A stretch of DNA of 64,000 nucleotides, from contig NEWQ02000015.1 in NCBI GenBank assembly GCA_002869855.2, forward strand, positions 32,458 through 96,457. Direction: 5' to 3'. This DNA is from Nitrospira sp. CG24D (GTDB lineage: Bacteria > Nitrospirota > Nitrospiria > Nitrospirales > Nitrospiraceae). Every line of letters begins with the position of its first letter. The first letter of the stretch is position 1. The notes beneath the pieces are model-generated. The model made no database searches. It saw only the letters and a list, made by a program, of their open reading frames with translations, and was not told the DNA's origin. A program made the position numbers and the translations under genes. Positions 17,877 to 29,173 of this stretch are shown here, in pieces.

Positions 17877-18326
17877 ATGGATATGTCTGATTCGATGGCG
17901 GTTTCGGTATCCGGTCTGGACGCCCAACGGCGACGGCTGAACGTTATTGCGAGCAATCTGGCCAATGCCCAATCCACACGCACACCCGGTGGCGGGCCCT
18001 ACAAACGGCGGGACGTGGTGTTTCATTCGGCTCCGGTGCTCAGTGCGTTCCAAAAAGCGTTTCGACAGGTGGCCATGGGCACGACGGCGCACGCTCTGGA
18101 AGGGGTGTCGGTCGCGCGCATCGTGGAAGATCAGAAGCCGGGACAGTTGATCTATGATCCTCATCATCCTGACGCCGATCCCAAAGGCTTTGTCCGTTTG
18201 CCCAACGTGAATGTGATGGAAGAGATGGTCAACATGATCGGCGCCTCGCGGGCCTATGAGGCAAACGTGCAGGCCATCAATGCAACTCGCGGCATGTGGA
18301 ACAAAGCTCTAGAAATCGGAAGGTAA
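17877..18326 (+). CDS. flgC: flagellar basal-body rod protein FlgC
   Basis: GLDAQRRRLNVIASNLANAQSTRTPGGGPYKRRDVVF; VNVMEEMVNMIGASRAYEANVQAINATRGM. Confidence 0.96.
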   Translation: MDMSDSMAVSVSGLDAQRRRLNVIASNLANAQSTRTPGGGPYKRRDVVFHSAPVLSAFQKAFRQVAMGTTAHALEGVSVARIVEDQKPGQLIYDPHHPDADPKGFVRLPNVNVMEEMVNMIGASRAYEANVQAINATRGMWNKALEIGR

Positions 18327-18432
18327 TCCATGACACCCATTGACGTGCACGTGCAGGATATCAAGGCAAGTCGCGGTATGCGGATCAAAGCATTGGAGAT
18401 CGGGAGGTAGACCATGACACCCATTCAAGGCA
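18265..18432 (+). repeat. 84-bp tandem duplication spanning flgC 3' end / fliE 5' end
   Basis: ACGTGCAGG..ATCAA.GCAA.TCGCGG.ATG.GGA.CAAAGC at 18265 and 18349; stop codons at 18324 and 18408 and ATGACACCCATT at 18330 and 18414, all offset by 84 nt. Confidence 0.93.
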
Positions 18433-18719
18433 TCTCGCCGGTTATTCCTACCATTGCGGACAGGATCGCTCCGGTCGGAGCGTCTGAAGCATCCGGACCC
18501 GGCGGGTTCATGGATACGCTCAAGAACGCCATCGGGAAGGCGAATGACGTGCAGGTGCAGGCCAATCAGGCCGTCGATGCTCTGGTGACGGGTCAATCGC
18601 AGGACCTCCATCGTACGATGGTGGCCTTACAGCAGGCCGATGTGTCGTTCCAACTGATGATGCAGATTCGCAACAAGCTTGTGACGGCGTACGAAGAAAT
18701 TCAACGGATGCAAGTGTGA
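18414..18719 (+). CDS. fliE: flagellar hook-basal body complex protein FliE
   Basis: Small protein with C-terminal ADVSFQLMMQIRNKLVTAYEEIQRMQV. Confidence 0.95.
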   Translation: MTPIQGISPVIPTIADRIAPVGASEASGPGGFMDTLKNAIGKANDVQVQANQAVDALVTGQSQDLHRTMVALQQADVSFQLMMQIRNKLVTAYEEIQRMQV

Positions 18720-21335: not shown

Positions 21336-22385
21336 ATGGCCACGAGCGCATCACTTCCGGCGAGACTTTCCGCTCCGGCATCGTCTGGAGCTCCGAAACT
21401 GCATGGATCGATCCTCGTCGTCGATGATGATGAGATTATCCGGAATCTCTTTATCGAACTCTTTCGATCGGAGGGAGTGGCCATTCGTGTTGCCGGGACC
21501 GCCCAAGAAGCGCTGGCGATGGTGAAACAAGCCTCACCTGCTCTCCTGATGGTGGATGTGACGCTGCCGGATCTGGATGGGATTTTGCTATTGGAGCAGG
21601 TCCAGGCCTGCGATCAGCGAGTGATCAGCGTCGTGATGACCGGATCACCGAGTGTCGAGCTGGCCGTTCGAGCCATGAAGGCCGGGGCCGCGGAATTCTT
21701 TATGAAGCCGATTCAGAACGATGTCGTGCTGATGACCGCTCGACGGTTGCTCGAACTGCATGCGTTACGCGCGGAAAACACGGTACTGAAACATGCCGTG
21801 GTCCGTGCCGGCGGGTTGCGCGTGCAAAGCATGGTGCTGCAATCATTCGGCGAAGACGGTGTAACGCGCGGGCAAGACGGACTGACTGAATTGGAACGCG
21901 GTATTGCCGAAGGCGAGCGACGCGCCTGTGCCCGGGACGAAGAGCGCCGGCGCCATGAACGGGCTGTACTCTCGAATGCCGTGAGAAAGTTCGATCAAGC
22001 CTGGCTGGCCTTGCATCAGACCGTGGAAGAAGAAGTGGTGAGTCTGGCCTTCCAGATTGCCACCAAAGTGCTGCACGACCGGGCTGACCAGGTCAAAGAA
22101 CAAGTGGCGGCGCAAGCCAAAACGGCGCTGGCGGCCTTGAAAGAGTCCGGCCGAGTGACGATTACGGTGCATCCCGCCGACGCCGGAACGCTCGAAGCGC
22201 TGCGCGGCGAATTGAGCCAGGTCGGCGATCTCACGCTCTCGCTCCATATTGAGCCGGATATCACGCTGTCGAGAGGAGGATGTATCGTGCAGACCGTCAA
22301 CCGAGTGGTCGACGCGTCGCTCGATACGCAATTAACCAGACTGGGCGAAGCGCTTCGCGCAAGAGGAACACATGTCGCTCAGTGA
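21336..22385 (+). CDS. fliH: response-regulator receiver domain fused to FliH (flagellar export ATPase regulator)
   Basis: aa ~25-140 receiver domain (VVDDDE, LLMVDVTLPDLDG, VVMTGS, FFMKPI); aa ~180-345 FliH-like coiled coil and ISTKV/HPADAGTLEAL...GGCIVQT; sits between fliG and fliI. Confidence 0.9.
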   Translation: MATSASLPARLSAPASSGAPKLHGSILVVDDDEIIRNLFIELFRSEGVAIRVAGTAQEALAMVKQASPALLMVDVTLPDLDGILLLEQVQACDQRVISVVMTGSPSVELAVRAMKAGAAEFFMKPIQNDVVLMTARRLLELHALRAENTVLKHAVVRAGGLRVQSMVLQSFGEDGVTRGQDGLTELERGIAEGERRACARDEERRRHERAVLSNAVRKFDQAWLALHQTVEEEVVSLAFQIATKVLHDRADQVKEQVAAQAKTALAALKESGRVTITVHPADAGTLEALRGELSQVGDLTLSLHIEPDITLSRGGCIVQTVNRVVDASLDTQLTRLGEALRARGTHVAQ

Positions 22386-23676
22386 TCTCCTTGATCAGGT
22401 CGAACCATTGGACATTACCGGACGTGTGGCGCAAGCCGTCGGTCTGGTTATTGAAGGCACCGGCGCGCGCTCGACGGTCGGCGATATCTGTCACATCACA
22501 AGAGAAGACGGTAAAGGGGTGATTCCTGCGGAAGTTGTGGGATTTCGAGGTGATCGTGTTTTGCTGATGCCGCTTGGGGAAATGCAAGGGATCGGGCCTT
22601 CGAGCCGCATCGCAATGACCGGTCAAGCGGCCGGACTTGCAGTCGGTCCCGCTCTGCTCGGGCGAGTCTTAAATGGGTTGGGGGAGCCCTTAGACGGCAA
22701 AGGACCCCTCGCCGCGCAGACACACTATCCGCTCCGGACGAGTCCACCGAATCCATTGTCGCGGAACCGTATCACGACCCCATTGGATCTTGGCGTCCGG
22801 GCGATCAACGGCTTCTTGACCTGTGGGCGCGGACAGAAAGTCGGGATCTTCGCCGGATCAGGAGTCGGTAAAAGTGTCTTGCTCGGAATGATCAGCCGCT
22901 ATACACAAGCGGACGTCAACGTCATTGCGCTGATCGGCGAACGCGGACGTGAAGTGAATGAGTTTCTGGAACGCGATCTGGGCCCTGAAGCCTTGAAGCG
23001 ATCGGTCGTCATTGTGGCCACGTCGGATCAACCGCCGATGGTCCGGTTGCGTGCATCTCTGGTGGCAACCTGTATTGCCGAATACTTTCGCGACCAGGGA
23101 CGTCAAGTGCTCTTGATGATGGACTCGTTGACCCGGTTGGCCTACAGCCAACGAGAAGTGGGGTTGGCGATCGGTGAACCTCCCACGACCAAAGGTTATA
23201 CGCCGTCGGTGTTCGCCATGCTGCCCAAGCTGCTGGAACGAGTGGGAACCGGACCCGGGGTCGGCACGATTACGGGGTTGTATACGGTGCTCGTGGACGG
23301 CGATGATCTGTCCGACCCGATTGCCGATACGGTGCGTTCTATTCTGGATGGACATATCGTCCTCTCGCGCGCCCTCGCGGCGCAAAACCACTTCCCGGCG
23401 ATCGATCTGCTCCAAAGTACCAGCCGGGTTATGCGCGATATTGTCACGCGGGAGCATGAGACCGCGGCACGCCAAACGATCGAATTGCTGGCGCGGTATC
23501 GACAATCCGAAGATCTCATTCTCCTCGGCGCTTATAAGCAGGGGATGAATGCGGCTCTGGATCGAGCGGTGCGCGGACAAGACGCCATTAATGGATTTCT
23601 CCGTCAGGCGGTTGAACAGCCCGCTGACTTTGCCTCATCGCGACAGGACCTTCTCACCTTGGCACAACAGACATGA
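22372..23676 (+). CDS. fliI: flagellum-specific ATP synthase FliI
   Basis: GIFAGSGVGKSVLLGMI Walker A, LLMMDSLTRLAYSQREVGLAIGEPP. Confidence 0.97.
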   Translation: MSLSDLLDQVEPLDITGRVAQAVGLVIEGTGARSTVGDICHITREDGKGVIPAEVVGFRGDRVLLMPLGEMQGIGPSSRIAMTGQAAGLAVGPALLGRVLNGLGEPLDGKGPLAAQTHYPLRTSPPNPLSRNRITTPLDLGVRAINGFLTCGRGQKVGIFAGSGVGKSVLLGMISRYTQADVNVIALIGERGREVNEFLERDLGPEALKRSVVIVATSDQPPMVRLRASLVATCIAEYFRDQGRQVLLMMDSLTRLAYSQREVGLAIGEPPTTKGYTPSVFAMLPKLLERVGTGPGVGTITGLYTVLVDGDDLSDPIADTVRSILDGHIVLSRALAAQNHFPAIDLLQSTSRVMRDIVTREHETAARQTIELLARYRQSEDLILLGAYKQGMNAALDRAVRGQDAINGFLRQAVEQPADFASSRQDLLTLAQQT

Positions 23677-24113
23677 GCGTACAGTCACTGCAGCATTATC
23701 GTATTCAGGTCGAGGAGCAGCTCAAGATGGAGCTGGCTGAGGTTACCCAGCAACTACTCCAGGCTGAGCAATCCATTGCGCGCTTGGCGGACGATCAGCG
23801 GCAGCAGGAGGAACGGTACCGTGAAGAGACCCGCCAAGGCTTGACGATTGAGCAATTGCTGCAGTGGCAATCGCACTTTGAAGCGCAGGCATCCGCAACG
23901 GAGCAGGCCCGGCGAACCATGGCGCATTGGCAACTGCAATGGGATGAGGCACGAACCAAGCTGGTGGCGGCGAGCCAGGATCGCCGGACATTGGATCGAC
24001 TGATCGCGCGGTATCGGGAGGCGGCACTGACGGAAATGCGTCGCCGCGAGCAACTGGCGACAGATGAGTCTGCCCATCATCGATTTGCCGGGCAGGGAGA
24101 TGCGCTGTCATGA
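23673..24113 (+). CDS. fliJ: flagellar export chaperone FliJ-like
   Basis: Coiled-coil 146 aa protein directly after fliI. Confidence 0.75.
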   Translation: MSVQSLQHYRIQVEEQLKMELAEVTQQLLQAEQSIARLADDQRQQEERYREETRQGLTIEQLLQWQSHFEAQASATEQARRTMAHWQLQWDEARTKLVAASQDRRTLDRLIARYREAALTEMRRREQLATDESAHHRFAGQGDALS

Positions 24114-24883
24114 AGCCTAGACACACTCCTCACGTCTCCGATCGTATTACATTACGGCATGCCGTGAGACCTCAACCTTCATTGACACGGTCAGCGCGGC
24201 GCTCCCATCTCTGGACGTTGGCCGGAGGAGTCACCGGATCGGTCTTTCTGCTGTGGGTGATGGTACAACTGGGCCAGGCCTCATCTGAGCCGCAGCCGAA
24301 GCCAACCAAGCCGGTGGTTGCGGCCGCGCCGTCAACCACGTCGGGACCTGCCGGGAGCGCCGAAACGGCTGCTGACACAACCACCGTACCGGCCACGCAA
24401 GGACCGGCCATTGAGACGCCACGAGAAGTCATTGAGATGTTAGATCAGCGTAAGAAGGATCTCGATCGCCGTGAAGTGGCCGTTCGGCAAGAAGAAGAGC
24501 GTCTCCTCGCCCTCAAGACGGAACTGGAAGGACTTCTCACCAGAAATGAAGCCATGCAGAAGAAGCTTGAGGAGTCTCGGCGGCTGCATCAGAAACAAAC
24601 GACGGAACAGAAAGCCCAGCAGGACCAGTTTATCGCTGATCGGAAAGCCATGTACTCCAAGCACGCACAGGATCAGAAGAGTCAGAGTCAGGCGCAACTC
24701 GCAAAGATGTATGAATCCATGCCGTCTGAAGAGGCCGCGGCCAGACTCGAAAAGCTGCCTGAACACAAAGCAATCGAAATTCTTCGCATCGTCAAGCCGA
24801 AAACCGCCGGCGCGATTCTCGCTCAAGTCCGTGTCGAACGGGCCGCAAAGCTCACCGAACAGTTGCTCGTTCAAGCCCCCTAA
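24110..24883 (+). CDS. MotE/MgtE-N-like flagellar protein
   Basis: N-terminal TM, coiled coil, C-terminal YESMPSEEAAARLEKLPEHKAIEILRIVKPKTAGAILAQV. Confidence 0.7.
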   Translation: MKPRHTPHVSDRITLRHAVRPQPSLTRSARRSHLWTLAGGVTGSVFLLWVMVQLGQASSEPQPKPTKPVVAAAPSTTSGPAGSAETAADTTTVPATQGPAIETPREVIEMLDQRKKDLDRREVAVRQEEERLLALKTELEGLLTRNEAMQKKLEESRRLHQKQTTEQKAQQDQFIADRKAMYSKHAQDQKSQSQAQLAKMYESMPSEEAAARLEKLPEHKAIEILRIVKPKTAGAILAQVRVERAAKLTEQLLVQAP

Positions 24884-24983
24884 GCCTGTCCGCAGTGCAG
24901 GGTGGATCCATCTTGCCTACGGGATAGGAAGTTCTTTCCACCTCCATTAATTCTGCTGATACCGCGTCGTTCATTTCCATCAA

Positions 24984-25000
24984 TTGGCGCAGAGTTTGCG
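24984..25000 (+). promoter_or_regulatory. candidate sigma54 promoter P1 upstream of fliK
   Basis: TTGGCGCAGAGTTTGCG, GG(24986)-N10-GC(24998). Confidence 0.5.
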
Positions 25001-25010
25001 GTTAGGCGAC

Positions 25011-25027
25011 CTGGCACGAGGCTTGAA
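25011..25027 (+). promoter_or_regulatory. candidate sigma54 promoter P2 upstream of fliK
   Basis: CTGGCACGAGGCTTGAA, near-consensus -24 element, -12 GA instead of GC. Confidence 0.5.
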
Positions 25028-25073
25028 CTATGCCGGTGCGTGTCATCCGATAATCATTGGGAATCCTGAGGCC

Positions 25074-26696
25074 ATGATGGACGTTCAACTACCTCATCTC
25101 GCATCAGCAGGTACTTCCAGCGCGACAAGCTCTCAGAGCACTCCTCGCCCCGGACAAGGCGGAGGCAGACGAGAGTCGGCCGGATCCGGCAAATCATTTT
25201 CGTCCGAATTGCATGCCGCTAATACAGTAAAGGAACCGCGTCACGAGATAGGACATAGCCAAACAGAGGGTGATGAGCACGATGCCCCGACGTCTTCGGA
25301 CGAATCTACGCCCACAGCAACAGCTGAAACCTCTTCCGGCGCAATCAGGGTTGAACAAACGAGCGACAGAGCAGGCGAACCTTCCCGGCATGACTCCGAC
25401 ACCGTCACAGCGTCGCCGTTGCCCGATGTGACGACGCAAAGCGTGTTGCTCGCGCTGATCGCTCAGCCCATTGTCAGCACAGATGCTCAGGCCCTGACGC
25501 AGACCTTATCTGATGAACAGACGAACACCGCAATGGGGTCCGTGATGTCTTCTGTCATGGAGGACGGGACATCGTTGCCGGTCACGGCGGCGGACTCCTC
25601 CACATATTCGCAGGTAGATAGCAAAGAGAGCACTGCCAAGTCCACAGATGCCACGGCAGCCATTCCATCAGGAGCAGTCCTTACCGCTGCGGTCGATACC
25701 GCGATACAGCAGAATTCATCCCTTGACCAAGATACGACTCTGGGCAGTCAGGCGCAGCTAACTCCCGAAGAGCTCCGCACTCTTCAACAGGAGAAATCGA
25801 CATTCCCGCTCACGGATGAGGAAGGGCCGCATATCTCAGTGGAGGTTGAGGCGAAGAATGAGTCGATAGTCACGCCAAATGATCTGCGGTCTCAAGTACG
25901 GGAAGAACTCAAGGCCGTCGCGGCTCTGACAGCCGAGCCGGTCCAGCGGCCAGAAGATAATCGGCCGGTACTCATGGAGCGCCCGGTTCCAGCACAAGAG
26001 ATCCCGGGACCGAATGAAGACGTGGCGCCTCGCCAGCCATCCGTTGCCCCGATCGCGTGGCAAGAACCCACGAACCAGGAGGCCGAGAGCGGGATGGAAT
26101 GGTCCGGCCGCGACCATCGCGAGCGCCCATCCGGAGATCAGGTCCTGGCGCAGTCCACCATGCCGGACGTCTCCGCGCCTGCCACACCGTCGAATTCCAC
26201 GCTATTGAACAATGGTATAGATCACCGCGTATTTTCTTCTGCTCCTTCAGACAAGCTTCCTGTTGACGCTCAACCGGCTGCTTCTGCACTTCCTGTTCAG
26301 CCGACCGATTGGATGCCGGGAACTTCTGCGAATCAGACCAAGTCGATGGTGCTTGAGCTTTCTCAAGCTGATTTGGGGCGGGTGAATATTCGTGTCGCGG
26401 TCAATCAGGATACCGTACACACGCATTTCTCATCCGAGCGGAACGAGTTAGGACAGTATCTCGTGAATGGGCAAGACCGATTGCAATCAGCGTTGAACGC
26501 GTCAGGATTGGATCTGGGGCGATTCCAGGTTGACATTGACCGCCAGAGCGCCGGGCGGTCCTTCCAACAGCCGGCGTCCCAGGGACAGTCACAGGGGCAT
26601 ACGCCGCAGGGAGAGAGTCAGAACCCAGGACAGGGGCGTGAAGAAGTGATGCGTGACAACAAGCCGCGTCGCGGCATGTTGAATCTGGTGGCATAA
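25074..26696 (+). CDS. fliK: flagellar hook-length control protein FliK
   Basis: Low-complexity N-terminus; C-terminal MVLELSQADLGRVNIRVAVNQDTVHTHFSSERNELGQYL; ATG 25074 preferred over 24984 because promoter-like motifs precede it. Confidence 0.85.
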   Translation: MMDVQLPHLASAGTSSATSSQSTPRPGQGGGRRESAGSGKSFSSELHAANTVKEPRHEIGHSQTEGDEHDAPTSSDESTPTATAETSSGAIRVEQTSDRAGEPSRHDSDTVTASPLPDVTTQSVLLALIAQPIVSTDAQALTQTLSDEQTNTAMGSVMSSVMEDGTSLPVTAADSSTYSQVDSKESTAKSTDATAAIPSGAVLTAAVDTAIQQNSSLDQDTTLGSQAQLTPEELRTLQQEKSTFPLTDEEGPHISVEVEAKNESIVTPNDLRSQVREELKAVAALTAEPVQRPEDNRPVLMERPVPAQEIPGPNEDVAPRQPSVAPIAWQEPTNQEAESGMEWSGRDHRERPSGDQVLAQSTMPDVSAPATPSNSTLLNNGIDHRVFSSAPSDKLPVDAQPAASALPVQPTDWMPGTSANQTKSMVLELSQADLGRVNIRVAVNQDTVHTHFSSERNELGQYLVNGQDRLQSALNASGLDLGRFQVDIDRQSAGRSFQQPASQGQSQGHTPQGESQNPGQGREEVMRDNKPRRGMLNLVA

Positions 26697-26714
26697 AGAT
26701 AGGGGAATCGGATT

Positions 26715-27395
26715 ATGGCAACAATTAGTTCCGCGACATCACAGACGACCCCCGGTGTCACGACTCCAGCGAGCGGCGGGATCTCCGGCGCGTTGAGTGG
26801 CAACCAACAATTGGGTCAGAACGACTTTCTCAAGCTGCTGGTCACGCAACTCAAGAATCAGGATCCATTGAAGCCGATGGATAACACCGCATTTGTTGCC
26901 GAGCTGGCCCAATTCAGCCAGTTGGACCAGAGCACCAAGCAAGTCCAGCTGTTGGAAAAGAGTATCGCCCAACAAACGGATTCGATGCAGTACACCTTGC
27001 TGCCGATGATAGGGCGAAACGTCCAGGTCGAAGGCTCGCTCATCGATCTGAACAACGGACCGGCAAAACTCACGTATGCGTTGGAGCATGAAGCGGCCAC
27101 CGTACGGGTCACCATCCAGGACAAACAAGGAAAGGCCATTCGCGTCCTGGAATTGGGGACACAGAGTGCCGGGAAGCAGGAAGTACAGTGGGATGGACGC
27201 AATCAAAACGGTCTCTTGATGCCGAACGGAACCTATCAGTATCAAGTCCTGGCAAAGGACGCGAAGGGTGCAGCCGTCATAGCCGCCCCGAGTTCCGTCT
27301 TAACGGTTTCCGGCGTGCGGATGGTGGATGGAACCCCGCAACTCGCCGCCGGCGAGTATGTGATCGACCGCAAAGACATTGTCGAACTGCGATAA
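26715..27395 (+). CDS. flgD: flagellar hook capping protein FlgD
   Basis: LGQNDFLKLLVTQLKNQDPLKPMDNTAFVAELAQFSQLDQ. Confidence 0.97.
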   Translation: MATISSATSQTTPGVTTPASGGISGALSGNQQLGQNDFLKLLVTQLKNQDPLKPMDNTAFVAELAQFSQLDQSTKQVQLLEKSIAQQTDSMQYTLLPMIGRNVQVEGSLIDLNNGPAKLTYALEHEAATVRVTIQDKQGKAIRVLELGTQSAGKQEVQWDGRNQNGLLMPNGTYQYQVLAKDAKGAAVIAAPSSVLTVSGVRMVDGTPQLAAGEYVIDRKDIVELR

Positions 27396-27436
27396 ATTGA
27401 ATGAGAAAGCATTTGCTACAAAGGAGGGTGTGATCC

Positions 27437-29173
27437 ATGGGTATTCTGTCGTCCCTATTTGCCGGAGTGAGCGGGCTCAATGCCAACGGCACGGCGCTGT
27501 CGGTCATCGGTAACAACATTGCCAATCTCAGCACGGTCGGGTTCAAGGGGAGTCGCGCCACCTTCGCCGACTTGATCAGCTCCTCGATCTCGGGAGGGTC
27601 CGGTTCAGTGCAAACCGGAATCGGCGTGGCTCTTACCTCGGTGCAAGGGGATTTCACCCAGGGATCGCTGGCCACCTCCTCGAACGTGCTCGATCTGGCC
27701 ATCGACGGCAACGGATTTTTTGTCATGAAGGATGCGCAGAACGGCACGTTCTACGGCCGCAATGGCCTCTTCCGTTTGAATCAAAACAGCGTGGTCGTGG
27801 ACCCGACAGGATTCAAGTTGCAGGGATTCCTTGCTGATACCACCGGGACCATCACGGGAAATATCGGCGACATTGCCTTGCCGACGACGACCGCGGCGCC
27901 GAATCCCACCACGACCGCGCTATTGGCCGCCAACCTGAACTCCGGCACCTCGACGACCGGAGTCCGCGGCAATGTGATTGCATCTGCCGCTTCGGTCACG
28001 ACCTCGGCAGCCGGCAATAATGCCTTTACCATCAATCTGAATGGGGATGGCGCTCAGACGGTCACGGTTGCGAACGGCCTTACCGGATCAACGCTCTCCA
28101 GCGCGATCCAGAGCGCGGTACGAAGTTTGACTGCGGCCAACCCATACTTGCAGTCGGCTTATGATGGTTTTGAAGCGACGGTGGGGGCCAGCAACATTTT
28201 CACCTTCCGATCAGGCATCTCGGGCACAACGAACGATGCAGCGACCAATGACGGTGCTGTGGTGGTCGCAGCCAGCGGTGCCAATACCCTGGCCTCAACG
28301 CTGAACATGCTGGCCGGCACCTCGACCACCGGCACAGATTTCGATATCACTGATCCGGTCGGGACCTCGAACTTTACCACCTCCCTGACGGTCTATGATA
28401 CGTTGGGAAATGATCACCTATTGACCACCTATTTCACGAAGGTTGGATCGAATACCTGGAACTATAACGTTGTGTCGAGCACCGCCGACGTGAATACCGC
28501 CAACTATCATTCGAGCAATATCGATACGACGCTTGGAATTGTGCGAGTCGGCGCCGGCACCCTCACATTCGGAACGGATGGGACGCTGCAGCGTGAAGGG
28601 CCGGTGATTCGATTCGATACGAATACGGCAGCGGGAACGGTGGGAACGACGGCGGGAGAACTGCAGATCGACTTTGTCGGCGCTACGCAAGATCAGCTCA
28701 TTGAGTTCAATTTCGGCGATAGTGTGATTAGCGACGGTGGGAACGGGCTGACCGGATCGACGCAATTCGGCTCCACCTCTGCGTTGGTCCAGCAAACCCA
28801 AGACGGCTATGCCGCCGGTTCGCTCCAGGCCTTCAGTGTCGATACGAATGGCGTCATCAGCGGCCGGTTCTCTAACGGGCAACTGCGCGCCTTGGCTCAG
28901 GTGGTTCTCGCGAGATTCCCGGATCCGATCGGCTTGACCAGGACCGGCAAGAACACCTTTGCCGAATCAGGAAATTCCGGTCAGCCGGTCACAGGCTCTC
29001 CGGATAGTGCGGGCCTGGGACGGGTGCTCGCGAATTCACTGGAGCTTTCGAACGTCGATCTCGGCCAGAGCTTCATCGATATGATCGCCGCACAACGGGG
29101 TTTCCAGGCCAACTCCCGTGTCATCACGACATCAGACGAAATCCTTCAGGAACTGGTGAATTTGAAACGGTAA
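27437..29173 (+). CDS. flgE: flagellar hook protein FlgE
   Basis: SLFAGVSGLNANGTALSVIGNNIANLSTVGFKGSRATFADL; C-term VDLGQSFIDMIAAQRGFQANSRVITTSDEILQELVNLKR. Confidence 0.97.
   Translation: MGILSSLFAGVSGLNANGTALSVIGNNIANLSTVGFKGSRATFADLISSSISGGSGSVQTGIGVALTSVQGDFTQGSLATSSNVLDLAIDGNGFFVMKDAQNGTFYGRNGLFRLNQNSVVVDPTGFKLQGFLADTTGTITGNIGDIALPTTTAAPNPTTTALLAANLNSGTSTTGVRGNVIASAASVTTSAAGNNAFTINLNGDGAQTVTVANGLTGSTLSSAIQSAVRSLTAANPYLQSAYDGFEATVGASNIFTFRSGISGTTNDAATNDGAVVVAASGANTLASTLNMLAGTSTTGTDFDITDPVGTSNFTTSLTVYDTLGNDHLLTTYFTKVGSNTWNYNVVSSTADVNTANYHSSNIDTTLGIVRVGAGTLTFGTDGTLQREGPVIRFDTNTAAGTVGTTAGELQIDFVGATQDQLIEFNFGDSVISDGGNGLTGSTQFGSTSALVQQTQDGYAAGSLQAFSVDTNGVISGRFSNGQLRALAQVVLARFPDPIGLTRTGKNTFAESGNSGQPVTGSPDSAGLGRVLANSLELSNVDLGQSFIDMIAAQRGFQANSRVITTSDEILQELVNLKR

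Follow-up and report, generated by a model that had tools for sequence, protein, structure and literature searches.

In a 64-kb stretch of DNA from a Nitrospira MAG (G000, contig C7; hereafter the window), flgC and fliE are separated by an 87-nt spacer that holds one unit of a tandem repeat and an open frame of 26 codons, which raises the question of whether this insert is kept for a function or is the trace of its own origin. The original prediction, made from the letters of this DNA, read the junction as an in-frame 84-bp duplication that may be retained to set FliE translation or to encode a rod-derived micropeptide. With good confidence, we read it instead as a partly deleted, microhomology-associated tandem duplication that moved a ribosome-binding site (RBS) which had overlapped flgC, and that stands as a neutral scar.

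Results

All features placed in the window here lie on the + strand. The product of flgC (17877..18326) matches the Pfam families Flg_bbr_C (E 5.9e-15) and Flg_bb_rod (E 6.6e-8) and has full-length matches among Nitrospira relatives, while its last codons, EIGR and a stop, form part of the upstream copy of the repeat; fliE (18414..18719) matches Pfam FliE (E 2.4e-27). TRF found this repeat as the sole tandem array in the window, and a repeat search placed the copies at 18265-18341 and 18349-18425, with an offset of 84 and 82% identity over 77 nt. The original prediction had both starts right, but the match stops at 18425, not at 18432. Each copy does carry codons of the FlgC tail together with a stop, an RBS and ATGACACCCATT. 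Unit 1 (18265..18341) consists of the FlgC tail, a stop, a weakened Shine-Dalgarno sequence (SD) and a copied fliE start, with its flgC codons changed synonymously only, and unit 2 (18349..18425) of a decayed FlgC tail, a stop, a strong fliE SD and the fliE start. No promoter or terminator was found within the junction, and a search for structured RNA gave no Rfam match there to E=1.

The mini-ORF at 18330..18410 was present as first described, with 26 codons encoding MTPIDVHVQDIKASRGMRIKALEIGR followed by a stop. Its description as a FliE start joined to a FlgC tail holds for both of these parts but omits a third, internal piece of fliE. Codons 1-4 of fliE (MTPI) are copied at 18330..18341 with a 12/12 match to the fliE start, and at 18341..18357 lies a remnant of fliE codons about 44-50 (TGACGTGCACGTGCAGG; 16/17 match to 18545-18561), the peptide 'DVHVQ' coming from 'DVQVQ' of FliE. 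A longer version of this remnant occurs in the relative L003.

We examined the flgC-fliE junction in 80 flgC loci from relatives' contigs, and fliE starts 2-3 nt past the flgC stop in all of them except L003. A genus-wide search gave 68 genomes with matches, of which 65 have no insert: their spacer is 2-3 nt, and the span from flgC start to fliE end is 79-97 nt shorter than that of the window. A long spacer is found in the other three, namely the window (87 nt), G050 (116 nt) and G069 (77 nt); L003 and G050 are identical sequence, from a related MAG. The original prediction had held that relatives lacking the second unit, or carrying it with frameshifts or stops and no effect on fliE expression, would point to a neutral scar, and on the side of sequence both were found, as the close relative G022 (91% DNA identity) is without the unit and the unit of L003/G050 is frameshifted.

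The origin of the insert can be traced through L003. Positions 25-63 of the L003 insert match fliE nt 113-151 (codons about 38-50; 39 nt, 92%, E 1.8e-12), positions 54-88 match the flgC tail (35 nt, 94%, E 1.3e-12), and the two matches overlap by exactly the 10-bp GTGCAGGCCA. In the window this microhomology marks one duplication breakpoint in flgC (18267..18276) and another in fliE (18555..18564). In L003 the junction copy precedes the fliE copy by 204 nt, a spacing shared by the two GTGCAGGC copies of the insert-free L087, which argues that a 204-bp tandem duplication took place. The repeat of offset 84 is real, but 84 bp is what remained after deletions and not the size of the event. Point changes aside, the window insert equals that of L003 minus one 29-nt block, CAACGCCTCGCGCCAGCGGGAAGGCCAAT; the net loss since duplication is 120 nt in the window and 91 nt in L003, where the insert is out of the FlgC frame.

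Tandem duplication and deletion mediated by microhomology occur in bacteria. The present case shares with them a chimeric junction with a short direct repeat (10 bp) at both breakpoints, relatives free of the insert (65/68) and later shortening, and no mechanistic difference was found. Literature searches of a partial library returned no paper on a duplication of the flgC-fliE junction. We propose that, in an ancestor common to the window and G050, a 204-bp segment underwent tandem duplication between the GTGCAGGCCA microhomologies, as the L003 junction shows; the segment ran from ~60 nt before the end of flgC, through the spacer, to ~150 nt into fliE. The product was flgC, then a fusion FliE(1-50)::FlgC-tail, then intact fliE, with the fusion in frame because 204 nt make 68 codons. 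Deletion later reduced this fusion to 26 codons in the window, and in L003 the fusion lost its frame.

In 85 of 86 insert-free tails flgC ends in GGG AGG plus T (GGGAGGT), a fliE SD nested in the upstream gene with conservation at synonymous sites. AGG makes up 4% of the Arg codons of the window and GGG 24% of its family, and the retention of GGG AGG in flgC tails fits selection for the fliE SD. The lone insert-free tail off the motif is that of L079 (GGGAGATAA, -7.4 kcal/mol), despite a 2-nt spacer.

Duplexes with the anti-SD were predicted using the conserved 16S tail, and their median in relatives is about -11.7 kcal/mol. In unit 2 the predicted values are -12.2 (window) and -11.7 kcal/mol (L003), against -7.1 and -7.8 kcal/mol in unit 1, so the two RBS copies, GGAAGG and GGGAGG in the window, are not equivalent. 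The decayed copy inside flgC (GGAAGGTAA, 18318..18326) carries a synonymous change, GGG>GGA, while the probable working fliE SD (GGGAGGTAG, 18402..18410) overlaps the mini-ORF stop and has the same motif as the 85 insert-free tails. In each of the three insert carriers, synonymous change has weakened the SD copy within flgC.

Before the duplication, the fliE SD would have lain inside the Gly-Arg codons of flgC (GGG AGG). Afterwards the downstream copy alone would have been needed for fliE, which left the flgC copy free to drift by synonymous change, and fliE is probably translated today from the SD of unit 2. The proposal that the unit is retained to set FliE translation survives insofar as unit 2 carries the strong fliE SD and start, its conserved part, but there is no sign that a second unit alters the level of FliE.

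The substitutions, polarised against a majority ancestor, fall differently in the two units. In the flgC tail of unit 1 there are 4 (window) and 6 (L003) synonymous changes and 0 nonsynonymous ones, whereas the nonsynonymous changes in unit 2 number 5 (window) and 4 (L003), beside 4 and 2 that are synonymous or concern a stop codon. The changes in unit 2 avoid the SD/start block, with 16/17 placed upstream of it (Fisher p 0.012). The changes themselves are there in the alignment; that the peptide part of unit 2 and the SD copy of flgC drifted neutrally is what we infer from them, and the peptide part would have been free to drift once the duplication had occurred.

Discussion

A duplication, deletions, an SD kept downstream and weakened upstream, and a frame lost in one lineage can be read off the compared sequences, and our verdict is that the scar moved the fliE SD out of flgC, with all functional steps inferred from these comparisons. 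Against the scar reading count the mere two insert events known, the small numbers of substitutions and an ancestor reconstructed by majority, as well as the open ORF in each insert carrier and the position of G022 by its flanking genes, both taken up below. An SD that overlaps its co-directional upstream neighbour, at the 3' end or the stop codon, is a known arrangement (PMC2784483), and insert-free Nitrospira, with the fliE SD GGGAGGT inside the last flgC codons, resemble it; unlike that arrangement, the duplication seems to have split the two roles here, after which the flgC copy decayed synonymously. The locus can be seen as a natural experiment on overlapping function, in which an RBS inside flgC fixes codons and a second copy loosens the flgC copy at synonymous sites only, and such loosening is seen in two apparently independent events in the genus. 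It gives neither a new system nor a new peptide, and the finding is real but ordinary.

Another reading is that the mini-ORF is maintained as a translated bridge that stays open regardless of the peptide it encodes, on which ribosomes finishing flgC restart 3 nt on and reach the fliE start. We consider this unlikely. In experiments with E. coli and H. volcanii, termination-reinitiation almost ceased once the spacer exceeded about 20 nt (PMC10666635), which makes such a bridge conceivable, and in all three insert carriers an ATG lies 3 nt past the flgC stop and opens an ORF to fliE that ends 3 nt before the fliE ATG in the window and in an ATGA overlap in L003 and G069. Like the known pairs coupled by termination-reinitiation (PMC10666635, PMC6728339), flgC and fliE usually have just 2-3 nt between them, which is within coupling range, but the window differs from those pairs in its 87-nt spacer with a mini-ORF. 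A bridge would preserve coupling of flgC and fliE over a spacer otherwise too long. Against it, fliE possesses a strong SD itself, and PMC10666635 also cites studies that report coupling over greater distances. Chance openness of the three ORFs is 0.50, 0.51 and 0.26, with a product of about 0.07 in which the window and L003 are not independent, and at this value the openness may be due to chance and not to selection of a bridge ORF.

The third long spacer, that of G069, appears to be a decayed duplication that arose independently, with a period of 74. At this offset it matches the preceding flgC tail in 44/80 positions, among them a 12-mer in register, and no other offset in a scan from 60 to 94 exceeded 30 matches. 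The local alignment beat 1000/1000 shuffles without the SD part, and 3/1000 shuffles reached its score with the SD part. G069 falls outside the window group in the tree with insert-free lineages between, which makes an independent duplication the simplest account. Here too the flgC tail has a poor predicted SD (GGACGA, -3.5 kcal/mol) and fliE a strong one (-11.6 kcal/mol), and the spacer ORF encodes MMVLFRVVMSNVPCGTLPESVGGKP, unrelated to the window peptide. The strong divergence of this duplication counts against the scar reading. One could suppose that duplication recurs at the flgC/fliE junction in Nitrospira, where each event would release the fliE SD from the coding constraint of flgC and the insert would be kept as a translated bridge independent of its sequence, a combination that we regard as improbable. 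Within the G069 spacer (L084, 1951-2027) there is also a near-perfect palindrome, GCAATGTTCC-ATGT-GGAACATTGC, for which a hairpin is predicted, and its core TGTTCCATGTGGAACA may resemble a parS site.

Returning to the scar, its mini-ORF is probably not selected as a peptide. The original prediction had stressed that the frame stays open, but such an ORF stays open by chance after 12-14 neutral substitutions in about 70% of cases, so its openness says little about selection. A selected FlgC-tail micropeptide acting on rod assembly is very improbable, even with the FlgC frame intact in the window: the frame is shifted in L003, 5 of about 19 residues have changed, W>R and A>D among them, and the G069 peptide is another one, so that neither frame nor residues are conserved in relatives. 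Unit 2 descends from the last ~19 codons of the FlgC C-terminal domain (Flg_bbr_C, PF06429) but, unlike that domain, is shortened and has diverged, and its frame is lost in a close relative; the peptide spans under half of the 43-residue Flg_bbr_C match, and a Pfam search of the 26-aa product that included this family gave no match at E<=1. The L003 frameshift and the nonsynonymous changes in unit 2 led us to reject the micropeptide, and the mini-ORF would be passive; at most, ribosomes coming off flgC, 3 nt upstream, may translate it incidentally. That the insert is an artefact of assembly or binning is scarcely credible, even for a window from a MAG in 87 contigs, since the copies differ at 14/77 sites and an independent MAG (L003) has a homologous insert of different length, as the original prediction's dismissal of an assembly duplication would have it.

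The history of the insert among the window, G022 and L003 is less straightforward. Trees of flgB+fliF favour the window with G022 and reject a clade of the window with L003 (AU p 0.017), whereas flgC+fliE prefer the window with L003 but do not reject the alternative (p 0.118). G022 has no insert, though the flanking genes set it nearer to the window than L003, which implies one of two histories. Either the insert was lost from G022, its units having recombined with each other, or recombination moved the insert in an exchange of the locus; TA-GAA, common to unit 1 and the tail in G022, is a hint of excision there, from too few sites. Farther along the contig, window positions 22000-27700 match G050 contig C104 at 81% and at 89% further on, while G022 matches at 91% across the whole 20 kb, and this contrast in G050 possibly reflects recombination or a binning problem in G050.
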